Shown: positions 22,289 through 35,440, counted from the first letter of the stretch. The stretch is DNA of 35,513 bases from an uncultured Porphyromonadaceae bacterium (GCA_947175665.1 CAMWNR010000009.1:1-35513); one strand, 5' to 3'. Notes: generated from the letters alone by a model not told the origin. Made by a program: numbers and translations.

Positions 22289-22807
22289 CTATTGTATCTC
22301 TTGGATATATAAACTTGGCACTTCTTTAGTCAGCCAAATTCCTTCACTCGCTTTAAAAAATAAGAATCCACATTTTGACATAGAATACGAATCAATAACC
22401 AATAAAACCGCCTCTCCATGCCGTGTGCCGGTCAATATTGCTAAGTCTTTATCTTCTGTCAGATGTACATATTGTCTGGATTTCGGTCTGAGTCCATATT
22501 TCTTAATTGAATCAATATATTTTAATGCAGTTCCATGATACAACACTCCGGGCGGAACTTGGCTATGTAGGGATAAGTCTACATTTACAGAGTGGCCATA
22601 CAACGCCCTAACCTTAGTCTTATCTAAATTAACCTCGAATCTACCCTTGCTATCGTTGGATACAATATCTATTATCTCCTCAGTCGTAAACGAGTATCTC
22701 TGACATAAATCATCCATATTTCTCCACCCACCGGATTCTAATTCATAATTATGATCGTGCCGCAAGAGGAATGCTAATTGCTTGCTTTTATTTGTGTTGA
22801 ATTCCAT
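22289..22807 (-). CDS. kptA: RNA 2'-phosphotransferase (Tpt1/KptA family)
   Basis: KSKQLAFLLRHDHNYELESGGWRNMDDL, GRFEVNLDKTKVRALYGHSV, PGVLYHGTALKYIDSIKKYGLRPKSRQYVHLTED. Confidence 0.92.
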   Translation of the reverse strand: MEFNTNKSKQLAFLLRHDHNYELESGGWRNMDDLCQRYSFTTEEIIDIVSNDSKGRFEVNLDKTKVRALYGHSVNVDLSLHSQVPPGVLYHGTALKYIDSIKKYGLRPKSRQYVHLTEDKDLAILTGTRHGEAVLLVIDSYSMSKCGFLFFKASEGIWLTKEVPSLYIQEIQ

Positions 22808-22906: not shown

Positions 22907-24064
22907 CTAATGTATCTCTTCAAAATTACCTGTATATAGTAAATCGCCATCCGAGTTATAAACTCTCAATTCATTTAATAAATATCCATGCGACATTCCC
23001 GTTAAGAATCGATATTTGTAGCCATCAATACAAAAGATAAATTCATCGGCATCGGGAACAGACTCATCATCAGAGATCCATTCATTATACGGAAATCTAT
23101 AATCCCAACTAATGAGTTGTCTAATCCCATTCTTGACTATCAAGTTTGGGTTACCGTTTTTTTCGCCCCCATTCCAACACATATATGTACATCTACCATC
23201 ATTTTCCTGTTCAATCCTGATAAAGTAATCTTCATTGAAGAACTCAAGAGGACTTATCAAGGTTATATCGCAAAAAATATTTCCATTCCAATGATAATGT
23301 CTGAACGTCCCTATCATTACTTGTGAACCTTCTGATGTCATACCGGTATCGGCCACATAGAGATCCTTGCGAAATTTATTATAAAGAATGGCTAATTTAT
23401 CTATCTCATCAATATCTTCTATTATAGCCTGGTTGCGATAGGCAAGCAATACATAAATCTCATCATCTTTTGAAGAATAATTTCGCTCGTACCTGACTGC
23501 TATCTCATCTATTCTCTCTTTTCCTAAGAGAAAAGCATCTGATAATTTGCTGAAATTTTGATTTTCTATCTTATATACATTGGCATACTTATTTGTTTCA
23601 CGGTCTCCAAGAAAAATTCCCCGAGCCACACTTTGGCATGATTGTATAAATAAATAACGATTATTTGAAAGGTAATATATATTTTCTATAGGGGTAATAG
23701 TATCATGGAATAGTACGGTGTTTATCTTTCCTGATACATTATTTTGCAGAATTACCCTACACGCACCGTTATAATCATGAATACTGTCACATATTCCTAT
23801 GCAATAAGCCTTGACTTTTTTATCATCCGATAAAACGCTGTTAAAACAATTAATATCTTCAAGAACCATATTAAATGTTTCAGGATTCTCTTTGATAAGT
23901 TTATAGATATTTTCTATTTGTTCATTTGAATATTCTCCCAAGCCGTCTTGATCATGAAGAATATTAGAAATTTGATCTTCAATACTAATATTCTTTGAAC
24001 ACCCTATAAGTATCAAAAAACTGATGCAATAACTACACAGTGATTTATAATACATACTCTTCAT
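22907..24064 (-). CDS. Hypothetical lipoprotein
   Basis: SFLILIGCSKN lipobox; 22-nt gap from upstream gene in the same operon. Confidence 0.6.
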   Translation of the reverse strand: MKSMYYKSLCSYCISFLILIGCSKNISIEDQISNILHDQDGLGEYSNEQIENIYKLIKENPETFNMVLEDINCFNSVLSDDKKVKAYCIGICDSIHDYNGACRVILQNNVSGKINTVLFHDTITPIENIYYLSNNRYLFIQSCQSVARGIFLGDRETNKYANVYKIENQNFSKLSDAFLLGKERIDEIAVRYERNYSSKDDEIYVLLAYRNQAIIEDIDEIDKLAILYNKFRKDLYVADTGMTSEGSQVMIGTFRHYHWNGNIFCDITLISPLEFFNEDYFIRIEQENDGRCTYMCWNGGEKNGNPNLIVKNGIRQLISWDYRFPYNEWISDDESVPDADEFIFCIDGYKYRFLTGMSHGYLLNELRVYNSDGDLLYTGNFEEIH

Positions 24065-24086
24065 ATTCTAAGAAGTGAATTATAGA

Positions 24087-25271
24087 TTAAAAGAACATGC
24101 CTATTCCTAAGATAAATTGATTTAAACCACTCACTCCACTTACAATATTATATCCAGCCATTATCATAAGTCCACATGTATAATCAGAATTAAATGGGAT
24201 GAAGCCATTTATGGTGGGCCTAACAAGCAGTCGGGTTTTATTTGACTCATCACCAGATAAAGATCCGGATCTAAAACCATCTTCTATTGATAGTTCTTTA
24301 GTCATCATCGTTCCTAAACCTACTCCCAATCCGAAATATTTAAGATTAATTCCAGGTGTTATTGCTAACTGCATTTTACCCTGAACATAGGTTTTATCAT
24401 TTATTTTTACGCAATTCTTGATATATTTTTCATAAAGAAAACCATCTTCAATACCTTCTTGATTCATTGGTCCTCCGCCATCAAGACTTAACTGAAAGTA
24501 CGACACATTGAATCCAATACCACCTCCAAATGCTACAGGGTTAGAAAATCCACTATATATGAAATAGTTGAATTTATTCTTAAAGGGACGTAAAGACTTT
24601 TTTGTTGGTTCTTTAACGAATACTGTTTTAATTTTCTGATTTAAACTGTTGACTTCTGCTAAACGATGAGCACTGATTGCATCTGTGGAGTTATAGGAAA
24701 GGATTTTATCTAAGTAGATTTTAGCAATATCGTATTTTTTATTGTTTATTGCATCATTTGCTTCATTTCTCCATGTTATACATTCAGTTATAGAAATTAA
24801 TAATTCCTCATCTGTTTGTCCGGAGATACACGTATATTCACGCAATTTATCTCTCGCTTCGAGATATTTCCCTTCCCGGTACAAGTTGCGAGCATTATCC
24901 AACATTGGTTGGTACTGTTTTTTCTTACAATTGGCAATGTACCCGGCCATATTAGGGTCTTTGCTATTAAGTCTCAGGATGGATTTATAGTTATCTATTG
25001 CACCCGAATAATTGTCCTCGCGTTCAAAACTCATTGCTTTTGACAATAAATTGAGGCATTCTGTACAAACATCTACTTTGTCAAGCGCATCTCGATTGCC
25101 GTAATCTAGATACACATCAGAATATTTATCTTTAGCGTGTTTATATTCTCCGGATTCAAAAAGCCTATTCGCTTCTGTCATTAATTGTGTGCTACTGCCG
25201 TTAGACGTTTGCGATATTGCCCAAAGTGGCATAAGTAACAGAAAGATAATTATATTGATTACCCTTTTCAT
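24087..25271 (-). CDS. Signal-peptide TPR protein with C-terminal outer-membrane beta-barrel-like region
   Basis: Signal peptide MKRVINIIIFLLLMPLWAISQ; TPR repeats (ANRLFESGEYKHAKDKYSDVYLDYG etc.); C-terminal alternating strands ending ...QFILGIGMFF. Confidence 0.65.
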   Translation of the reverse strand: MKRVINIIIFLLLMPLWAISQTSNGSSTQLMTEANRLFESGEYKHAKDKYSDVYLDYGNRDALDKVDVCTECLNLLSKAMSFEREDNYSGAIDNYKSILRLNSKDPNMAGYIANCKKKQYQPMLDNARNLYREGKYLEARDKLREYTCISGQTDEELLISITECITWRNEANDAINNKKYDIAKIYLDKILSYNSTDAISAHRLAEVNSLNQKIKTVFVKEPTKKSLRPFKNKFNYFIYSGFSNPVAFGGGIGFNVSYFQLSLDGGGPMNQEGIEDGFLYEKYIKNCVKINDKTYVQGKMQLAITPGINLKYFGLGVGLGTMMTKELSIEDGFRSGSLSGDESNKTRLLVRPTINGFIPFNSDYTCGLMIMAGYNIVSGVSGLNQFILGIGMFF

Positions 25272-25295
25272 ATATAAGTTTGAATACTAAAATGA

Positions 25296-26126
25296 TTAAT
25301 CCACTCCTTGATGTGCAAAGGGCACAGAATTTGTATGTGGGTTATTGAATGTAATTCTGAAATAAACTAAGTTTGACAAATTAATTACGTCACCTTCTTT
25401 CAAGTAAGGAAGTGCCTTGTGTGATAGAGTAACTAATTCCTCTTCAATACCATTTGCTCTATTTATTTTAGTAAAGACTTTATTCTGATTATTTTTCGCC
25501 CTGCAGCCTCTCGGCTTACATTTTAAATAATATTTTCCTTCATCTAAAATAATGGCAGCATGCAATCTACTTATCCCTTTACAATCATCCAAAATTACTA
25601 TGTCGTTTTTTTCAACAACCGAGAGGTTTTCTGAGCGACCGATATTCCACACATATCGAGTATTGGGCTCTAATTCAAAAATCTTTTGATTGACATTCTC
25701 CACTCCGCCAATGCACACGAGCCATGCTGGAGCAAATCCATGAATAGAAGTCGAACCTTGCTCAGAGATACCATGAGTCCTATAATATAAACGTCCTTTT
25801 ATTATAGGTAAAATCATATTTTCTCCGGTAATGAGACCACATATATCATCGGGAGAAATATGATGTAATTCTATAGATTTAATACCTGTTATCAACTCCT
25901 GTTGAAGGCGCGATTTAAGTTCTTTTATAAATGTACCATCAGCCCATTCAACATGCTCGTCATCTAACGTAGATACAATCCACAACTCAAGGACTGCTAA
26001 ATTACGATCTGTTGAACGAGAATATCTTGAGAGATGGCTGCATATAATGTTTAAGGCATCATTTTTATTCTCAATGAAGTTTTCCTTGTGATTAAGGAGC
26101 CTTTTAACTGACTGTATAATAGACAT
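25296..26126 (-). CDS. FHA-domain protein
   Basis: C-terminal RYVWNIGRSENLSVVEKNDIVILDDCKGISRLHAAIILDEGKYYLKCKPRGCRAKNNQNKVFTKIN...LKEGDVINLSNLVYFRI, a canonical FHA layout. Confidence 0.8.
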   Translation of the reverse strand: MSIIQSVKRLLNHKENFIENKNDALNIICSHLSRYSRSTDRNLAVLELWIVSTLDDEHVEWADGTFIKELKSRLQQELITGIKSIELHHISPDDICGLITGENMILPIIKGRLYYRTHGISEQGSTSIHGFAPAWLVCIGGVENVNQKIFELEPNTRYVWNIGRSENLSVVEKNDIVILDDCKGISRLHAAIILDEGKYYLKCKPRGCRAKNNQNKVFTKINRANGIEEELVTLSHKALPYLKEGDVINLSNLVYFRITFNNPHTNSVPFAHQGVD

Positions 26127-26134
26127 AAATACTT

Positions 26135-27712
26135 TTACTTTTTTCGAGCCAATTCAACTGCGCGGTCTGCACGTGCACGCTCGTTTTGAACTTTAGTTTG
26201 TAAATTTGAAATTTCTCTTCTGAGTTGATTCAACTCATTTTGCACATTTTGAGGTATCCGATACTCGATTTTTGTTTCGATAACCGGGACTTTGACTTTA
26301 ACTGTATCTTTTTGAGTAATTTTTACAGTATCGCGTTTTGTAACTTGAATCGTATCATGAACTATCTTTTCAATAATTTCCTTATTACCAACGTAACTTA
26401 TTGTTGAATCAACAACAGCAACACGTCCTGAATTATTATCACTGCTTTTACTTCCGGTTGTTACAAATGCAATACTAAGAGCAAGAAAAATTATAGGTAT
26501 CAATATCGACAAAATTTTCCACTTCCTAACGGCAGATTTATTTGTCTTCAAGACTCTTTCAATCTGTTGCGCCTCATTTCTGGAACTTTCAAGTTCTGAA
26601 GATAATGTTGAAATCTTCTTTTCTTGTTCTATTGAAGAAGCATCTTGTTCCGAGATACGATCATAGGCCAAAGTGAGTTGATTCGATAATTCCACATTAA
26701 CATCTTCAAGGTGTTTTGAAGTATCATATGAATTATACGCTGATTCGAGAGCAAGAAGGATTTCCTTAGCATTTGAATACCGATTTTTGGGTTCTTTAGA
26801 AAGACACTTATTGATAATTGTATCAAATTCCTCTGGATAATCCCTTACATAGGTAATGTCTCCAGATGCTTTTTTTCTAAGACTCAAAATATCCGGAACC
26901 GGGTTATGCAGTACCGCTTGCCAGAAATCACTTTCTCCCTTTGGACTTTCTTCTTTTAATCTGAAAGGTACTGTTCCGGTCAATACTTTAAATAATAATA
27001 CCCCTAATGAATAGACATCCGACTTTACCGTAGGTGGGTCTTGGTTGTATTTCTCCGGAGCCATATATTCCGTGCAACCTTTTCTTGCATTGGAAGAATT
27101 TACAGCATGGTGGTTTTGAATTGCCAAACCAAAATCTAATAGCACATACGAGCCATCAAGATTACGACGCATAACATTGCTTGCATGTAAATCGTTATGA
27201 CAAACACCATATTTTTTTACCAGTTCTCTCTCTTTTTCTACGTTAGGATATATATATTTTCGACCATCCTTAGGATCTGAAATTAGACCATCCTGTTGCG
27301 GATTCTGCAAAAATTTGTAAACATCAACATGGCAATATGCCATGGCTCCAACAATTTGCTGAATAAATTTCCAAACTTCTTGAAAAGGTAAGAATCTGAC
27401 TTTTTCTATATAGTCATGCAAGGTATCACCATCGATATAATCCATTTCTACCATGGCTTGATTATTTTCAAGACGCGGGTGATAGATCTTAACTATATTG
27501 GGATGTCCTCCGTTACCTATTTGTAGAAGGAGACGACATTCTTTAAAGAATTTGATCCATTCCTTATCTCTCTCTCCATGAATTATCGGTTCTTTACTAA
27601 CCTTAAGGGCGCGAATATAACCAAGAGATTTATGTCGCACCAAGTAAACGTTAGCAAATCCGCCGCTTCCTAAAGGGCAAATCTCGTCGTAATCTTTTAT
27701 ATTTAAACTCAT
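26135..27712 (-). CDS. Transmembrane Ser/Thr protein kinase (PknB-like catalytic domain, coiled-coil extracytoplasmic tail; start trimmed from ORF 27733 to ATG at 27712)
   Basis: LGSGGFANVYLVRH, ALKVSKE, CHNDLHASNVM, LLDFGLAIQN, EYMAPEKYN; TM WKILSILIPIIFLALSIAFVTTG; C-terminal LNQLRREISNLQTKVQNERARADRAVELARKK. Confidence 0.92.
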   Translation of the reverse strand: MSLNIKDYDEICPLGSGGFANVYLVRHKSLGYIRALKVSKEPIIHGERDKEWIKFFKECRLLLQIGNGGHPNIVKIYHPRLENNQAMVEMDYIDGDTLHDYIEKVRFLPFQEVWKFIQQIVGAMAYCHVDVYKFLQNPQQDGLISDPKDGRKYIYPNVEKERELVKKYGVCHNDLHASNVMRRNLDGSYVLLDFGLAIQNHHAVNSSNARKGCTEYMAPEKYNQDPPTVKSDVYSLGVLLFKVLTGTVPFRLKEESPKGESDFWQAVLHNPVPDILSLRKKASGDITYVRDYPEEFDTIINKCLSKEPKNRYSNAKEILLALESAYNSYDTSKHLEDVNVELSNQLTLAYDRISEQDASSIEQEKKISTLSSELESSRNEAQQIERVLKTNKSAVRKWKILSILIPIIFLALSIAFVTTGSKSSDNNSGRVAVVDSTISYVGNKEIIEKIVHDTIQVTKRDTVKITQKDTVKVKVPVIETKIEYRIPQNVQNELNQLRREISNLQTKVQNERARADRAVELARKK

Positions 27713-27713
27713 A

Positions 27714-30700
27714 CTAATAAGATATATAGCCACAATCTCTAAGAGCGGGAAGAATCGCTGTCTTTACCACTTCTACTGCAGAAGAAGAAATTGTCTTATC
27801 AGGAAGTCTTTCTAATCTCAGGGCGATTGATATGACACGATTATCTTTGGCATTCCGGATGTAACATATATACCATCCGTCATTCATAATTCCATTTTTT
27901 ACTCCTTTGATTTCTCGCATTGGAGTTCCTGTTTTACCTCCCATAACCGAGAGAATGTTTTTAGGAAATGAATGCGAAGGTTTTGATGCTTCACTATTCA
28001 TTGCAGAAGCCAGTAACTCATTAGTTTTACTCTCAAGTATCCTAATGCCCTCTTGAACCGGTTTATCTAATATATACCGGGTAGGAATTAGAACTCCATC
28101 ATTGCCAACTATACCTGCCACCTTTGCCATATTCAACGGGGACGCTTCTAATTGTGATTGTCCCCATGCTATGCCGGTATATTCCTGAATATTATTCATT
28201 CTGTTGTTGTGATGTTTGTCACCTCTGCTCCAACGGGTATTTGCCGGCAACTTACCCTTGGTCTGCATATAATTTTTATAGTCTCTTAGCCCCTTTTCTC
28301 TGAAATTCCGAGTGATGCTATCAAATTGGTATGTATCACCTTTTTCTCTCATACTGAAGAAATAAGGACGTTGATTTGCCAAGGATACACCGGTATTCCA
28401 ATAAATCCTGCCTAATTCTTGATACAAATCGTTTTCGTTGAGCGACATGATGAAATAGCAGTTAGAAGATGATTTTATGGCATTTTCCATAAATGTCTTT
28501 CTTCCTCCATTCCTATTCTTATCTCGTGTATTTATATTTGGCTCAGTCCCGGCAGGTTCCACACTCATAAAAGGTAATATTTCATATCCTTGATTATAGG
28601 CATCCGTTCCTAATTTTTGCAATCCTGCAATAGCGGTCATTACTTTGGCTGTGGAACCTGGTGCAGTCTGATAAGTCGTACCCAAGTCGCGCTCTGTTAT
28701 AGGTGATCCTACTCGCCATTCCGAAGGTGCGCCACCTTTACGATCTAACTCTAAATCCCGAATCTTGGATATTGAGTCTGTAATAGGAAGTGGATAATTG
28801 GCAGATGTAAGGAGGTCTCCCGTAGTTGCATCAAGAATTACAGCACTTGCGCGTAGGTACTTCAAATTCTTAAGTTTGGCATTTGATTGAACACTTTTTG
28901 CGAGATTATCTTCAATTTTTGCCTGAAGAATAGCATCTAAGGTAAGATTGATATCGCGTTTATTTCGTTCCTTGTTAAATCTTTCTATCCAAGGATTTCG
29001 ATAAATTGGACGAGATAAAGCGGGTAACAACGCTGAATAATCCCTTAAATAGTCTTTACTTAAATCTCCTACATTCGTGATAGGATCAACAAATCGATTA
29101 TATCGATACTTTGAATCAGGGAGATTAAACGGTTGAGGATGGGTTTCAAACCCTCGTAGCAAATCTTCTTCACGTGTTTCAGCGAAGAACCCCATAGGCA
29201 CTGTTTTCTCTTGTGAATTTTGGTAATTTGCATAAATGCCAGGATTGTTTAAATCACCGACCATAAACACAGTATACGATCCAAACGGATAATAACGTTT
29301 AAGTCTTCTATTCTTTTGTTCAGAAAGAGATAATAATTTTATCCCGATACGGTCTTGCAAATTCTTCCAATACTCATTATCGCTCAGATTTGATGTGTCT
29401 GATGTCGCAAGTAATATATTATTTCGATCATAAATATTACCCCGCTCAAGCATATTCTTTATTTGAGCAATACGTGGATTGTACTCTAAAACACGAAGAC
29501 CGGAAGATGTGGAAGTTATTGCAGGACGTATCTGAGTTTTTCCTGCCACTATTAATTGGTAATATGCATTTATTGCTGTAAAAAATACTATCCCAACAAA
29601 GAATAGTGTCATTCCCCAAAAAATATTCTTTTCAAGAGATTTTGCTTCTCGACTTTCAGGCGTTTCTTTTATCCTATGTTCGTTATACACATACGATTTA
29701 AGTGCTTCTTTTGTCCCTTTAGCACGAGAGATCGATAAGACGATACCATAGGCTCCAAGGGCCATTACGATACTTGTACCGCTGTAACTTAAGAATGGTA
29801 CAGGCACTCCGGACAGAGTTATCGCACCAACACACCCTAACGCTACGAATAAAAACTGAACGCCGGTTAGAAGTCCTATACCAAGACATAGATACAAAGT
29901 AAATCTATGCCCGGAATATTGCGCCACCATGGCTGTTCTTGAAATCAATAAGTAGAAACATACAGCGACAATGGCGATACCGAGCCATCCCATTTGTTCC
30001 CCGAGACTGTTTAATATAAGATCTGTGTGACCTGCCGGGATAAAATAAGGTGAGCCACCACCTAATCCCATTCCGGACATTCCGCCGGCCGCTGTTCCCC
30101 ATAAACCTTGAGCAATCTGATCTCCTTGTGGAATTGCATTGTCAAATATTCCTGACCAAGCCATATTTGTTCTGTTAAACAGACGGTCTGCCATGTGAGG
30201 CAATAATGGCCTAAGAACATATCCGCCTACTAAAAACAGAGAAACTAATGTACTAAAATATATGGCACTCTCAAATATAGTCTTATATTTCTTTATGCCT
30301 ATCCATATCCATAATACATACCAGACAATGACTGCCGCTATCCTTATAATCGGTATATCAGTCAGCATATATACACTTCCTACAAACGCGATGTAACTCA
30401 TTATCCCCACTATAAGTGGTAGGAAATCCCTTCTTACCACAGAATATAGAAGAATGAATGCGACCAAAATTACAATGCCAGGTCCCATATCCTTCAACAT
30501 TGCGAGGAATAGCAGGCTAACTATTGCAATGACGGCTACAATTACACCTACTATTGCGAAATGTCGTCTTTTTGAAAGTTTAGTAGTCACTTTCTCCCCA
30601 AATGTCTTTATCACATCTCCCTTTGCAATAAAGAAAAAGACGATGAACAAAAGCAGTATATATTTAACCACTTCACTTGGTTGGAAGAAACCAAAAAGAT

Positions 30701-32000
30701 TTACTCTGGCATCACTTCCTTCCGGTGCTGTACCGGCAAAACGTAATACAACCATTAACAGAATGGCGAGTATTAGGAAAGGATATCCGGGAGCAATACT
30801 TACTAAAGTACTACTGCCTAATCCGATGTGGTTATTCCACAATATACGGTAGCGTTGGAATAGTTTAAGATAGTTGATATAAGAGAAAATTAGCATTAAC
30901 CCACATCCAAGAACCATATACCCAACCATTTTATACGCATAGAATATGTCTGTAAGCGGTAGCATCTGCCCATAAAGAGTCAATAACCCCATACCACTTA
31001 AAATCATAAGTGTCAGCAATATGACGCGTTCTGTTTGATCTCCTTGCTTTTTATCTATCCAGCCCGCAACAAGAAAAACTATTAGCCAGCAAACAATAAA
31101 AATTGCAATTCCGAAAATCACCGCATCCTTATATTCTGCAGGTGTACGCGCTATAAGCGCTTTGTCAGACTTAAGCAACTTATAGGTTGAACCTTTAAAT
31201 GGTGTTAGTTGATGGCTGGTTTGTGTAAACTTTATATCATCTATATTTTTATCCAGACATCCGTTTGTTGTTCCCTTTTCTTGTCCATATTGAAATCCGG
31301 CACGAATAGGAATTACACTGTAAAAATGACCCTTTGGGACGTAAAATTGAGCAACACCCTTTTCGTCAGTTTTTGCGTAGCCGAGAATTCTGCTTTCATG
31401 GGATACCGGTAAATTGTTTGATTTAACCTTCGTATTAGTCCAATGTTCCGTGATACGAACAATGACATTCTTCTCCGGCGCACCACTACGAGGTATTACC
31501 TTGAGTAAGTTTGATCGTTCTATTTCAACCTTAACTTCAATAAGAGCCGTGCTGTCACTTTTACTACCGAAAGTTGATTTAAGAGTATTTAGATCTTGAG
31601 ATGCCCACAATGAGTCCTGACCGAGATTTTCAATCTCAGTGCTCAATCGGTCTTTCAATTCGTTTCCTCCATATAATAGAGCCGTGTCTGCGGGTATTTT
31701 GAAATCCTTGCCATTGATGGCTCCAAGATTTTCAATAGGGTCGTTCGTTTTTAACTTCTTTTCAAACCATTCCCCTATAAACTTGGCATCCTGAGGATCT
31801 GAAACATACCCTCCGGTCAATAGCAACATCGACAAACTATCTGCCTTGAGATCTTGGCCCATAACAATAGTCTCACCGCATTCAATTTGTTCATTTACTT
31901 TGTCAAACAGAGGCTGAAAGTTATATAACAACGACGCTGCCCCCAATATCATGAACATTGAGACCAAACAGAAAGCATATAGGGTTGTTTTCTTATTCAT
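27714..32000 (-). CDS. Fusion protein: N-terminal TM/beta-sandwich-like extension + SEDS (RodA/FtsW) polymerase + class B penicillin-binding protein transpeptidase
   Basis: SEDS blocks FQPSEVVKY, LKDMGPGIVILV, QIAQGLWGTAAGGMSGMGLGGGSPYFIPAGHTDLILNSLGEQMGWLG, GVPVPFLSYSGTSIVMALG; PBP blocks RGNIYDRNNILLA, APGSTAKV (SxxK), SSN, GGKTGTPM (KTG). Confidence 0.93.
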   Translation of the reverse strand: MNKKTTLYAFCLVSMFMILGAASLLYNFQPLFDKVNEQIECGETIVMGQDLKADSLSMLLLTGGYVSDPQDAKFIGEWFEKKLKTNDPIENLGAINGKDFKIPADTALLYGGNELKDRLSTEIENLGQDSLWASQDLNTLKSTFGSKSDSTALIEVKVEIERSNLLKVIPRSGAPEKNVIVRITEHWTNTKVKSNNLPVSHESRILGYAKTDEKGVAQFYVPKGHFYSVIPIRAGFQYGQEKGTTNGCLDKNIDDIKFTQTSHQLTPFKGSTYKLLKSDKALIARTPAEYKDAVIFGIAIFIVCWLIVFLVAGWIDKKQGDQTERVILLTLMILSGMGLLTLYGQMLPLTDIFYAYKMVGYMVLGCGLMLIFSYINYLKLFQRYRILWNNHIGLGSSTLVSIAPGYPFLILAILLMVVLRFAGTAPEGSDARVNLFGFFQPSEVVKYILLLFIVFFFIAKGDVIKTFGEKVTTKLSKRRHFAIVGVIVAVIAIVSLLFLAMLKDMGPGIVILVAFILLYSVVRRDFLPLIVGIMSYIAFVGSVYMLTDIPIIRIAAVIVWYVLWIWIGIKKYKTIFESAIYFSTLVSLFLVGGYVLRPLLPHMADRLFNRTNMAWSGIFDNAIPQGDQIAQGLWGTAAGGMSGMGLGGGSPYFIPAGHTDLILNSLGEQMGWLGIAIVAVCFYLLISRTAMVAQYSGHRFTLYLCLGIGLLTGVQFLFVALGCVGAITLSGVPVPFLSYSGTSIVMALGAYGIVLSISRAKGTKEALKSYVYNEHRIKETPESREAKSLEKNIFWGMTLFFVGIVFFTAINAYYQLIVAGKTQIRPAITSTSSGLRVLEYNPRIAQIKNMLERGNIYDRNNILLATSDTSNLSDNEYWKNLQDRIGIKLLSLSEQKNRRLKRYYPFGSYTVFMVGDLNNPGIYANYQNSQEKTVPMGFFAETREEDLLRGFETHPQPFNLPDSKYRYNRFVDPITNVGDLSKDYLRDYSALLPALSRPIYRNPWIERFNKERNKRDINLTLDAILQAKIEDNLAKSVQSNAKLKNLKYLRASAVILDATTGDLLTSANYPLPITDSISKIRDLELDRKGGAPSEWRVGSPITERDLGTTYQTAPGSTAKVMTAIAGLQKLGTDAYNQGYEILPFMSVEPAGTEPNINTRDKNRNGGRKTFMENAIKSSSNCYFIMSLNENDLYQELGRIYWNTGVSLANQRPYFFSMREKGDTYQFDSITRNFREKGLRDYKNYMQTKGKLPANTRWSRGDKHHNNRMNNIQEYTGIAWGQSQLEASPLNMAKVAGIVGNDGVLIPTRYILDKPVQEGIRILESKTNELLASAMNSEASKPSHSFPKNILSVMGGKTGTPMREIKGVKNGIMNDGWYICYIRNAKDNRVISIALRLERLPDKTISSSAVEVVKTAILPALRDCGYISY

Positions 32001-33066
32001 TGTTAATTATGGTATCATTGTTTAAGGCGAAAGTATCCGGAGGCATAATATTCCCTTTAATTTCTGCATCATTAGTCACAGAAATTTTGGGAGTTATAGT
32101 GATGGTTGTGTTATTTTGGAGGGATTCATACTTGATCCCTATCCAAAAACCTAATGTTAGTAAAAATACAGAGTATAATATGATAATCAGACTCTTAATA
32201 ATAACTCGTTTTAATTTTGACTTATTAGTAGAATGCCCACATGAGACTTCAGTATTATCCTCTGCATCACATTCTGATATTTGCTCACTTATACTCATAT
32301 CCTTAGATTCAGAGATATGGGCAATTACTACAGTAATATTATCTTTACCTCCTGCGTTATTAGCATTTGTGATCAATTTATCGCATTCACTTTCAGGAGA
32401 TAACTTTGATGAAAGGCAATTTCCTATCTGGGACGAAGTTAATACATCGCATAATCCGTCAGAGCAAAACAGATAAGTTTCTTCATCAAACAATGGGAAG
32501 ACAGCGGCTTCGATAAACGAAGCATCGTCTGCCAAGTGGTTGTCACTACCTAAGCACCTTTCAATAACAGACCTTCTGGGATGTTTCATAGCCTGTTCTT
32601 CTGTTAGGATACCTTCCTCTTCTTGATAACCAACAAGGCTGTGGTCGTGGGTTAACTTTATAAGTTCTCCATGAGAATACCTATAAAGGCGGGAATCGCC
32701 TACATGAGCAACTGAGAGTGTTTTTTCGTCAAGGTCTATTATGCCTGCGGTAGCGACACATCCCATTCTCCTGTATCGAGGTTGTGCCTCTTTATTTCGG
32801 ACAATTTCATTATTGGCATCTGCTACCGCTCTCTTAATCAAATTAAGAATGGTGTCATTTGGGAACTCTTCCAAATACCTGACAATGGAAGAACGTGCGA
32901 TCTCCGCAGCAACCTCTCCGCCTTCTTCTCCGCCCATGCCGTCTATGACAACAAGAAGTATGTGCCTGTCATCCCATATTGTCTGTGCAATAAAGGTATC
33001 TTCGTTATTGGTTCTTACTTTACCAACATCGGTCGCACCGAAATAAGTTACATTTAACGACGACAT
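31993..33066 (-). CDS. PP2C/PPM-family Ser/Thr phosphatase with C-terminal TM (PstP-like)
   Basis: VRTNNEDTF, LLVVIDGMGGEEGGEVAAEIA, VAHVGDSRLYRY, LTHDHSLV, YLFCSDGLCDVLT, GGKDNITVVIAHI; TM VIIKSLIIILYSVFLLTLGFWIG. Overlaps next gene by 8 nt. Confidence 0.93.
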   Translation of the reverse strand: MSSLNVTYFGATDVGKVRTNNEDTFIAQTIWDDRHILLVVIDGMGGEEGGEVAAEIARSSIVRYLEEFPNDTILNLIKRAVADANNEIVRNKEAQPRYRRMGCVATAGIIDLDEKTLSVAHVGDSRLYRYSHGELIKLTHDHSLVGYQEEEGILTEEQAMKHPRRSVIERCLGSDNHLADDASFIEAAVFPLFDEETYLFCSDGLCDVLTSSQIGNCLSSKLSPESECDKLITNANNAGGKDNITVVIAHISESKDMSISEQISECDAEDNTEVSCGHSTNKSKLKRVIIKSLIIILYSVFLLTLGFWIGIKYESLQNNTTITITPKISVTNDAEIKGNIMPPDTFALNNDTIINNE

Positions 33067-33158
33067 TATCGTTTGTGGTTTTGGCTGTTAAGAAGAATGG
33101 TGCTTACAAGAAAAATCAGTAGTACGACTTCAATTACAATGAAAAACAGATCCCACAT
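33066..33158 (-). CDS. 30-aa single-transmembrane micro-protein (not in ORF track)
   Basis: Translated by hand: MWDLFFIVIEVVLLIFLVSTILLNSQNHKR*. ATG 3 nt after upstream stop (TAAGCCATG) and TAATG overlap with the PP2C start. Confidence 0.6.
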   Translation of the reverse strand: MWDLFFIVIEVVLLIFLVSTILLNSQNHKR

Positions 33159-33161
33159 GGC

Positions 33162-34157
33162 TTACTTTTTATTGAAAACAAACTCAATACTGCCATTCAG
33201 TTTTATTGTAGTATTTTTATCAGAAAGTCTTGTCCATTTGTTACGAGTGGCTGGAATCTGATTTACTTCGACATCCCCGATAGGCCGAATATAAAAACCA
33301 CCGTCAGTATCCCTGCGTATTTCAAAGTGCGGGCTTTGGATAGTCTCTGAATCAAGTGCTACCATAGGTTTTCCTTGATACATTGGTGATGCTGAACGTC
33401 CGCCAAAGAACATATCAGTTAATCGAATATCAAATATGGAATATTTGTTTTTATGAGCATCTAAGAAAGAAATTCCATCACACGATTTTAAGGTAGCCAA
33501 TGCTTCATCATTGTTTAACGCAGAATTTACAGGAGCAACAGGAACCCCCTCAATACTTATTGGGTATGAATATCCGGTACCACTTGGCTTAAGTCCTGCG
33601 ATAGCACGAATACTAAGCCGCTGCATATTTTCATATTTGCTGTTTGGCTTTGAACGATTGGTTTTAACTTCAGCATCTTCGTCAAGCGCAGTAAAATTAT
33701 ACAATTCTGTTGGAACAAAAGACGATCGAACCGCAACGAAGTTCTCTTCAAGATCTTCGTAAGTTACCCTACTATCCGGATTATCTTCATCAGGAATATC
33801 TGATCCTTCTTCCTTTAACGATATAATATCAAATGACCAACTATCACAGATTGGCTTCATTCTCAGATTCCTGTTCTTTTTAAGTCGTTCAACAAGAATT
33901 TCATTGAACCTCTCTACCGCTTCTTGAGTTGCAACGCCAAAAGCAAGATGCAAATCCCGAAAGTTGCTATGAGGAACATATACAACGTAAGCAGTATGAA
34001 ACATCAAAGTCCGCTCCGTTGACATCTGCTCAATCGATTCCTCGAACGCACACACAATCTCATCGATCACAAGCGAAACCTTGTTCCTTTTTGATGATAA
34101 TCTTCCCATATATTGCTTAGGAAGAATGATATTTTTTAGTTTTGTAACCAAGTCCAT
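33162..34157 (-). CDS. FhaA-like protein: N-terminal DUF3662-like region plus divergent C-terminal FHA domain
   Basis: N-terminal FEESIEQMSTERTLMFHTAYVVYVPHSNFRDL resembles FhaA N-domain; C-terminal MFFGGRSA...SPHFEIRRDTDGGFYIRPIGD...LSDKNTTIKLNGSIEFVF resembles FHA. Confidence 0.6.
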   Translation of the reverse strand: MDLVTKLKNIILPKQYMGRLSSKRNKVSLVIDEIVCAFEESIEQMSTERTLMFHTAYVVYVPHSNFRDLHLAFGVATQEAVERFNEILVERLKKNRNLRMKPICDSWSFDIISLKEEGSDIPDEDNPDSRVTYEDLEENFVAVRSSFVPTELYNFTALDEDAEVKTNRSKPNSKYENMQRLSIRAIAGLKPSGTGYSYPISIEGVPVAPVNSALNNDEALATLKSCDGISFLDAHKNKYSIFDIRLTDMFFGGRSASPMYQGKPMVALDSETIQSPHFEIRRDTDGGFYIRPIGDVEVNQIPATRNKWTRLSDKNTTIKLNGSIEFVFNKK

Positions 34158-34250: not shown

Positions 34251-34523
34251 TTAATGTTTTTTATTCCTTGATATGGAGATAGAATAGTTTAAAAATTTAA
34301 AAATATTTATAATCCAGAGTATTCCACATGTTAATAAAGACCAGAATACAAACCAAATAATTTTAAACAGAAAACCAAAAGAATTACCCTCAAATGACAT
34401 TCCTTTATCTGAATCTTTTGATGAATTATATAAGAAATTCCAGGGTGCTTCAGATAACCCTAAAGTACATATAGCAATGATTGCTTTTTTACGTTTTACT
34501 CTCCACACTTCAATTGTATTCAT
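34251..34523 (-). CDS. Small membrane protein, hypothetical
   Basis: 90-aa ORF with hydrophobic FGFLFKIIWFVFWSLLTCGILWIINIF; AAAGGA-like sequence just upstream of ATG. Confidence 0.5.
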   Translation of the reverse strand: MNTIEVWRVKRKKAIIAICTLGLSEAPWNFLYNSSKDSDKGMSFEGNSFGFLFKIIWFVFWSLLTCGILWIINIFKFLNYSISISRNKKH

Positions 34524-35155: not shown

Positions 35156-35246
35156 ATCATATACTTTTTATTGATGCCCTCTTCTCGGGTGTCGGGCTTG
35201 ACCCATAATTATTTAGTACTTTCTTCCTGTCAGAGGATTGGCGTAT

Positions 35247-35417
35247 TTATTTCTGGATTGGCAAGTAAATCTCAATTCCCATTTTATCCAGAATTTCCTT
35301 AACTTTCTTTTCGCTACGAGGGCGTGTATAGAGGGCATTCCAAAATTTTGGATGCGCTTCGCGGTCGTCAGTCCCATTTATCGATGATTCTCTTTGCGTT
35401 GTTCCAAATCTTACCAT
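35247..35417 (-). pseudogene. Truncated UpxY/NusG-like transcription antiterminator (NGN domain remnant)
   Basis: MVRFGTTQRESSINGTDDREAHPKFWNALYTRPRSEKKVKEILDKMGIEIYLPIQK* followed in the same frame by IRQSSDRKKVL, the usual continuation of UpxY-type NGN domains. Confidence 0.65.
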
Positions 35418-35440
35418 CGCACGATATTATTAAGGTGTTT

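Follow-up and report, generated by a model that had tools for sequence, protein, structure and literature searches.

Phosphorylation-based control of wall growth, exerted through Ser/Thr kinases and FHA proteins, has been studied mainly in Gram-positive bacteria. The actinobacterial fhaA-fhaB-pstP-rodA-pbpA-pknAB locus controls wall synthesis (PMC6554272; PMC11898655). Loss of RodA D262 inactivates RodA-PBP2 (PMC10449877; PMC6207328), and synthetic SEDS-bPBP fusions are active peptidoglycan synthases (PMC6207328). A natural SEDS-PBP fusion receives a passing mention, citing the Rhodococcus RHA1 genome, in one of these papers (PMC10449877). Our literature search, which covered open-access full text, returned no description of the cassette reported here in Bacteroidota or Acidobacteriota.

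The window, meaning the whole stretch of 35,513 nt that was analysed, comes from an uncultured Porphyromonadaceae bacterium (GCA_947175665.1 CAMWNR010000009.1:1-35513), a Bacteroidales genome of gut type. Its minus strand carries a run from 34157 down to 22907 in which sequence reading, Pfam and TM prediction together recover all eight of the features expected:

33162..34157, minus strand: FhaA-like protein, 331 aa, with an FhaA_N-related N-terminal domain and a C-terminal FHA fold
33066..33158, minus strand: single-TM microprotein, 30 aa, MWDLFFIVIEVVLLIFLVSTILLNSQNHKR, a small ORF between fhaA and the PP2C gene
31993..33066, minus strand: PP2C Ser/Thr phosphatase of PstP/Stp1 type with one C-terminal TM (PP2C_2)
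27714..32000, minus strand: SEDS/class B PBP fusion, 1428 aa (FTSW_RODA_SPOVE and Transpeptidase)
26135..27733, minus strand: Ser/Thr protein kinase with one TM and without PASTA (Pkinase)
25296..26126, minus strand: FHA2, the second FHA protein (FHA)
24087..25271, minus strand: secreted TPR protein with a barrel-like C-terminal part, accessory (TPR_2)
22907..24064, minus strand: lipoprotein with an LIGC lipobox, accessory (read from sequence)

The earlier note on this DNA described a tightly packed run with overlaps, and this is confirmed, with spacings from -20 to 24 nt besides a 95-nt gap between the FhaA-like and PP2C genes, which is occupied by the 30-codon ORF 33158-33066. The microprotein stop overlaps the PP2C start (TAATG), the PP2C-fusion spacing is -8 nt, and that between fusion and kinase is -20 nt from the GTG start of the kinase or 1 nt from an internal ATG. 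Gaps of 8, 24 and 22 nt separate kinase from FHA2, FHA2 from the TPR gene and the TPR gene from the lipoprotein gene, respectively. A promoter scan gave no more sites than shuffled sequence (51 vs 55). The SEDS, transpeptidase, PP2C, kinase and FHA domains that had been called at the outset were all found by Pfam in these ORFs.

Like the actinobacterial fhaA-fhaB-pstP-rodA-pbpA-pknA-pknB locus, the run is co-directional, begins with a protein of the FhaA_N plus FHA type, and continues with a small membrane protein slot, a PP2C with a TM, SEDS, class B PBP and a membrane kinase. The gene order, which had been equated with that of Mycobacterium, is similar but not identical, with FhaB absent, a TM peptide of ~30 aa between fhaA and the phosphatase, and kinases without PASTA. 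Instead of separate rodA and pbpA genes there is a single fusion ORF of 1428 codons with an added N-terminal periplasmic domain, and a second FHA protein is encoded downstream. The cassette also differs from the actinobacterial locus in being extra and patchy, beside separate RodA and FtsW, in Gram-negative hosts. With RodA-PBP2 and FtsW-FtsI it shares the GT Asp, the SEDS fold, the class B TP motifs and the same domain pair, whereas its synthase is one polypeptide in a separate SEDS clade and is predicted to bring its own kinase, phosphatase and FHA control. The linkage of a PP2C to a membrane Ser/Thr kinase, apparently tied to wall growth, recalls the Stp1/PrkC pairs of Firmicutes, although PrkC is a PASTA kinase and the cassette, without PASTA, holds the synthase and FHA proteins as well.

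To assess recurrence of the gene set, a profile was run against a single genome for each species, which yielded 79 fusion loci in Sphingobacteriaceae, Chitinophagaceae, Cytophagales, Flavobacterium, a Bacteroidaceae MAG, Rhodothermales and Acidobacteriota. Neighbour clustering gave four recurring partners, each in 66-72 of 81 loci, and flanking families in at most 9. The earlier note had tied its proposal to the set being present in other genomes, and the set does recur: partner profiles placed FhaA, PP2C, FHA2 and kinase together, all on the strand of the fusion, in 52/56 complete loci, defined as those with at least 6 kb on both sides of the fusion. Matches to the partner profiles numbered 312 near the fusion (one on the opposite strand) vs one in 397 kb of flanks. 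The cassette is real and recurrent, far beyond chance, and its conserved core of fusion, kinase, PP2C and FHA proteins spans Bacteroidota, Rhodothermota and Acidobacteriota. Its occurrence is patchy, at 15/396 in Bacteroidota, 2/393 in Bacteroidales and 2/37 genomes of the genus of the window, and so sporadic a distribution excludes it from the core wall genes. Two other Bacteroidales copies (L082 and L170) have the order fusion - kinase - FHA2 - FhaA - PP2C, and the secreted or membrane proteins adjoining them are different ones; one genome (G192) holds two distinct fusion-type SEDS-PBP proteins in separate clusters (L172 on contig C121, and L171).

The synthase combines both Pfam families, FTSW_RODA_SPOVE (PF01098; 1.3e-26) and Transpeptidase (2.4e-14), within a single ORF, arranged as an N-terminal TM, a periplasmic domain at ~40-265, a TM, the SEDS region at ~325-765, a further TM and the class B PBP. 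In an alignment of 14 homologues, of which 13 share 23-54% identity with the window protein, H658-T659-D660 (the HTD motif), QPSE..K, S1116xxK1119, S1178xN1180 and K1356-T1357-G1358 are invariant across all 14 fusions. D660 corresponds by alignment to E. coli RodA D262, so that the SEDS half has a catalytic Asp in the HTD motif of a periplasmic loop together with the SEDS fold region, and the class B PBP half has SxxK, SxN and KTG complete. The periplasmic region of ~230 residues is modelled (pLDDT 86.6) as helices followed by an Ig-like sandwich, a part that Acidobacteriota lack. Assigning a fold identity or a function to this N-terminal domain was dropped, the structural matches being weak, of CnaB/Ig type and with low TM-scores.

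The relationship of the fusions to canonical SEDS proteins was examined in a tree of 65 SEDS domains, 32 from fusions. All 32 are split by a branch with SH-aLRT 100 from both canonical groups and lie outside the RodA and FtsW clades, and the branch between fusion and canonical SEDS is long (1.7). The window copy clusters with three other Bacteroidales copies (support 98), its relatives being other Bacteroidota, then Rhodothermota and Acidobacteriota. Every checked, reasonably complete fusion genome has two further SEDS genes, RodA and FtsW; in one acidobacterial genome (G827) only fusion-type SEDS matches were obtained. The genome of the window likewise has its own RodA and FtsW besides the fusion, in agreement with the original description of the synthase as auxiliary. 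Given the single separate clade and the retention of separate RodA and FtsW, the fusion SEDS is a third SEDS lineage in this tree, which is without actinobacterial RodA.

The predicted control enzymes retain their active-site residues. The kinase (Pkinase, 4.3e-40) has a TM at 404-429 and a coiled-coil-like C-terminal tail, and its HxDxxxxN, DFG and PE motifs are invariant in 27 homologues. No PASTA match was found among 27 members, namely the window kinase and 26 homologues. An insert of ~40 residues just before the catalytic HxD loop is common to the Bacteroidales kinases (window, L048, L082 and L170); in the window it covers ~136-178, with the pattern D..DG.KY...EKE.LI.KY. The phosphatase (PP2C_2, 7.2e-12) scores 208 bits against Stp1_PP2C, below the equivalog cut-off of 230. 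Its metal-site Asp/Gly residues are invariant in 18 homologues and a TM lies at 285-313, giving it both the metal-binding residues and the membrane anchor of a PstP/Stp1-type PP2C.

The two FHA proteins differ in the state of their phosphopeptide sites. FHA2 matches FHA at 5.9e-6, and 17/17 members of its family give an FHA match; G163, R164 and N174 are invariant, S186, R187 and H189 nearly so, and the phosphothreonine-site residues are the canonical ones of an active FHA domain (GR / S-R-x-H). In the FhaA-like protein, the C-terminal half is an FHA fold according to an AF2 model (pLDDT 77.7) and Foldseek FHA matches. Its phosphopeptide site is degenerate in the Bacteroidota proteins, those of Acidobacteriota having a canonical one. 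For the N-terminal domain, no direct Pfam FhaA_N match exists in the window genome and no PDB sequence match was found. FhaA_N was for this reason reached through acidobacterial intermediates: the domain family aligns with acidobacterial FhaA N-termini (hhalign probability 97.2%, E 2.9e-11), and these proteins in turn match PF12401 FhaA_N at 7.6e-5 to 0.004, just below the cut-off. Searched alone, the protein falls below the Pfam cut-off, but its FHA fold is detected by model and Foldseek, and the initial FhaA-like call stands. We take the protein, from these sequence comparisons, as an FhaA family member at long distance.

The small ORF was followed through 65 adjacent FhaA/PP2C pairs, most of which enclose a one-TM ORF 27-33 codons long, and positional homologues of 27-33 aa were recovered at >50 loci. 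Alignment of 53 microproteins gives the pattern L..(H/N)F..(I/L) with the Phe invariant, where the rows were selected by HF/NF, so that these two columns cannot count as independent support. Mean pN is 0.22 vs a pS of 0.71, with pN<pS in 24/24 disjoint pairs, and the microprotein is under strong purifying selection. A TM ORF of 27-31 aa also directly follows fhaA in acidobacterial loci (L119, L125) and in loci of other classes (L171, L173, L174), and is kept even in those cases where the fusion comes directly next. In Bacteroidota, Rhodothermota-like genomes and Acidobacteriota alike, the microprotein goes with fhaA. The window and L048 copies keep the size, place and TM and have no HF motif; none was found in L073, L082, L089 and L170, whose genes abut or are rearranged (for L082 and L170, in the gaps searched). 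No named family was found for it. The earlier note had listed the TM microprotein, which is present as described, but had missed its conservation and selection. The N-terminus of actinobacterial FhaB is a TM, and we conjecture that the microprotein sits in the FhaB slot.

The intact site residues of the GT, TP, kinase, PP2C and FHA2 components are consistent with a phospho-regulated peptidoglycan synthase, and the gene set suggests a cell-wall synthase toggled by protein phosphorylation. The cassette is probably functional, as judged from its sequence, and on balance we favour the reading that it is an extra peptidoglycan synthase under Ser/Thr phosphorylation control, for which we infer enzymatic activity, phosphorylation targets, complex formation and physiological trigger. 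The SEDS half of the fusion would polymerise lipid II and the class B PBP half would crosslink the product, alongside the normal RodA and FtsW machines. The membrane kinase and membrane PP2C would govern how cytoplasmic parts of the complex are phosphorylated, FHA2 would read phosphothreonine, and the FhaA-like protein, with its degenerate FHA site in Bacteroidota, may be a scaffold positioning the synthase. The single-TM microprotein could serve as an intramembrane subunit that connects the FhaA-like protein with either the fusion or the phosphatase. Among cytoplasmic residues, no conserved Thr emerged as a target. The initial proposal of a self-contained, phospho-regulated auxiliary synthase is upheld for the recurring set with its kept catalytic residues, but does not extend to the TPR and lipoprotein genes. 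More tentatively, and at somewhat under even chances, the cassette may represent a third SEDS-bPBP class, a self-contained phospho-regulated unit in several Gram-negative phyla with an essential TM microprotein of ~30 residues as intramembrane switch between FHA reader and synthase; the new parts are the conserved microprotein and the third SEDS lineage.

Composition and placement bear on how the cassette spreads and on what it may be for. GC3 is 0.28-0.34 in the operon and 0.36 in the adjoining kptA, vs 0.468 (sd 0.029) in 13 other window genes. The second copy in the genus (L048) occupies another chromosomal site, next to typA and a restriction-modification-like set, with GC near 0.45-0.51, and in the SEDS tree the Flavobacterium copy is nested within Spirosoma. 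Low GC3, rarity, differing sites and this nesting make lateral movement of the cassette likely, and the window copy was probably acquired in this way. The same features, namely sporadic distribution, an AT-rich window copy with low GC3, different sites within the genus (window vs L048) and the Flavobacterium copy among Spirosoma, together with restriction-modification-like genes adjoining one copy (G027), would also fit a module on mobile DNA that counters envelope stress or antagonism. Its kinase would sense envelope damage from beta-lactam, bacteriocin, phage or T6SS attack, its fusion being a repair rather than a growth synthase. We regard this as unlikely, though the most serious of the alternatives, since flanking genes differ between loci and PADLOC matches only the generic kinase, no other protein belonging to a defence family; on the PADLOC result an anti-phage defence system was rejected as a candidate. 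This alternative differs from the favoured synthase reading in physiology more than in biochemistry.

A deeper departure would be a fusion that has diverged from peptidoglycan polymerisation into signalling or scaffolding, with kinase, FHA and PP2C proteins as a general phospho-signalling unit. The long branch parting its SEDS domain from RodA and FtsW and the added N-terminal periplasmic domain would agree with such a change, but the catalytic Asp, QPSE..K, SxxK, SxN and KTG are invariant in the aligned fusions, and we consider it very improbable. Given how common SEDS, PBP, PP2C and kinase domains are, a plain duplicate of the elongation machinery could also have come to lie beside a kinase operon by chance. 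This is contradicted by the recurrence data, in which the same co-directional gene set appears across distant phyla and is absent from flanks, and by the single clade of fusion SEDS, which is separate from RodA as well as from FtsW, leaving coincidence the least credible explanation.

As an extra phospho-regulated synthase, the cassette places an entire circuit, with its enzyme fused 1:1, in Gram-negative phyla beside RodA and FtsW, and should for that reason be deletable without touching the core machines. Structural studies gain from it a SEDS-PBP fusion that occurs in nature. It also provides a conserved microprotein without a named family, and might yield a beta-lactam target or a bypass synthase.

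The last two genes of the run stand apart from the core. The TPR protein (TPR_2, 3.1e-6) is encoded by a gene with GC3 as low as the rest of the operon, and the lipoprotein has no family above the cut-off. Neither gene has a tblastn match in any fetched locus; they are therefore regarded as accessory and were ruled out as core parts, and the suggestion that TPR/barrel and lipoprotein components adapt the system to a Gram-negative envelope was not sustained. Upstream of the FhaA-like gene, 34251-34523 (minus strand) encodes a hydrophobic protein of 90 aa with GC 0.27; with no family and no relative at other loci in the cluster survey, it was rejected as a cassette part. Upstream of the cassette in L048, two adenine methylases and an endonuclease that form a DpnII-like set, with typA after them, were noted by eye (L048:2760-5432). 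In the window, a KptA/Tpt1 RNA 2'-phosphotransferase (PF01885, E 4e-33) at 22289-22807 (minus strand) lies directly downstream of the operon in the same AT-rich stretch, and a short frame at 35213-35420 (minus strand), cut by a stop near the contig end, resembles by eye the start of a NusG/UpxY-type antiterminator.
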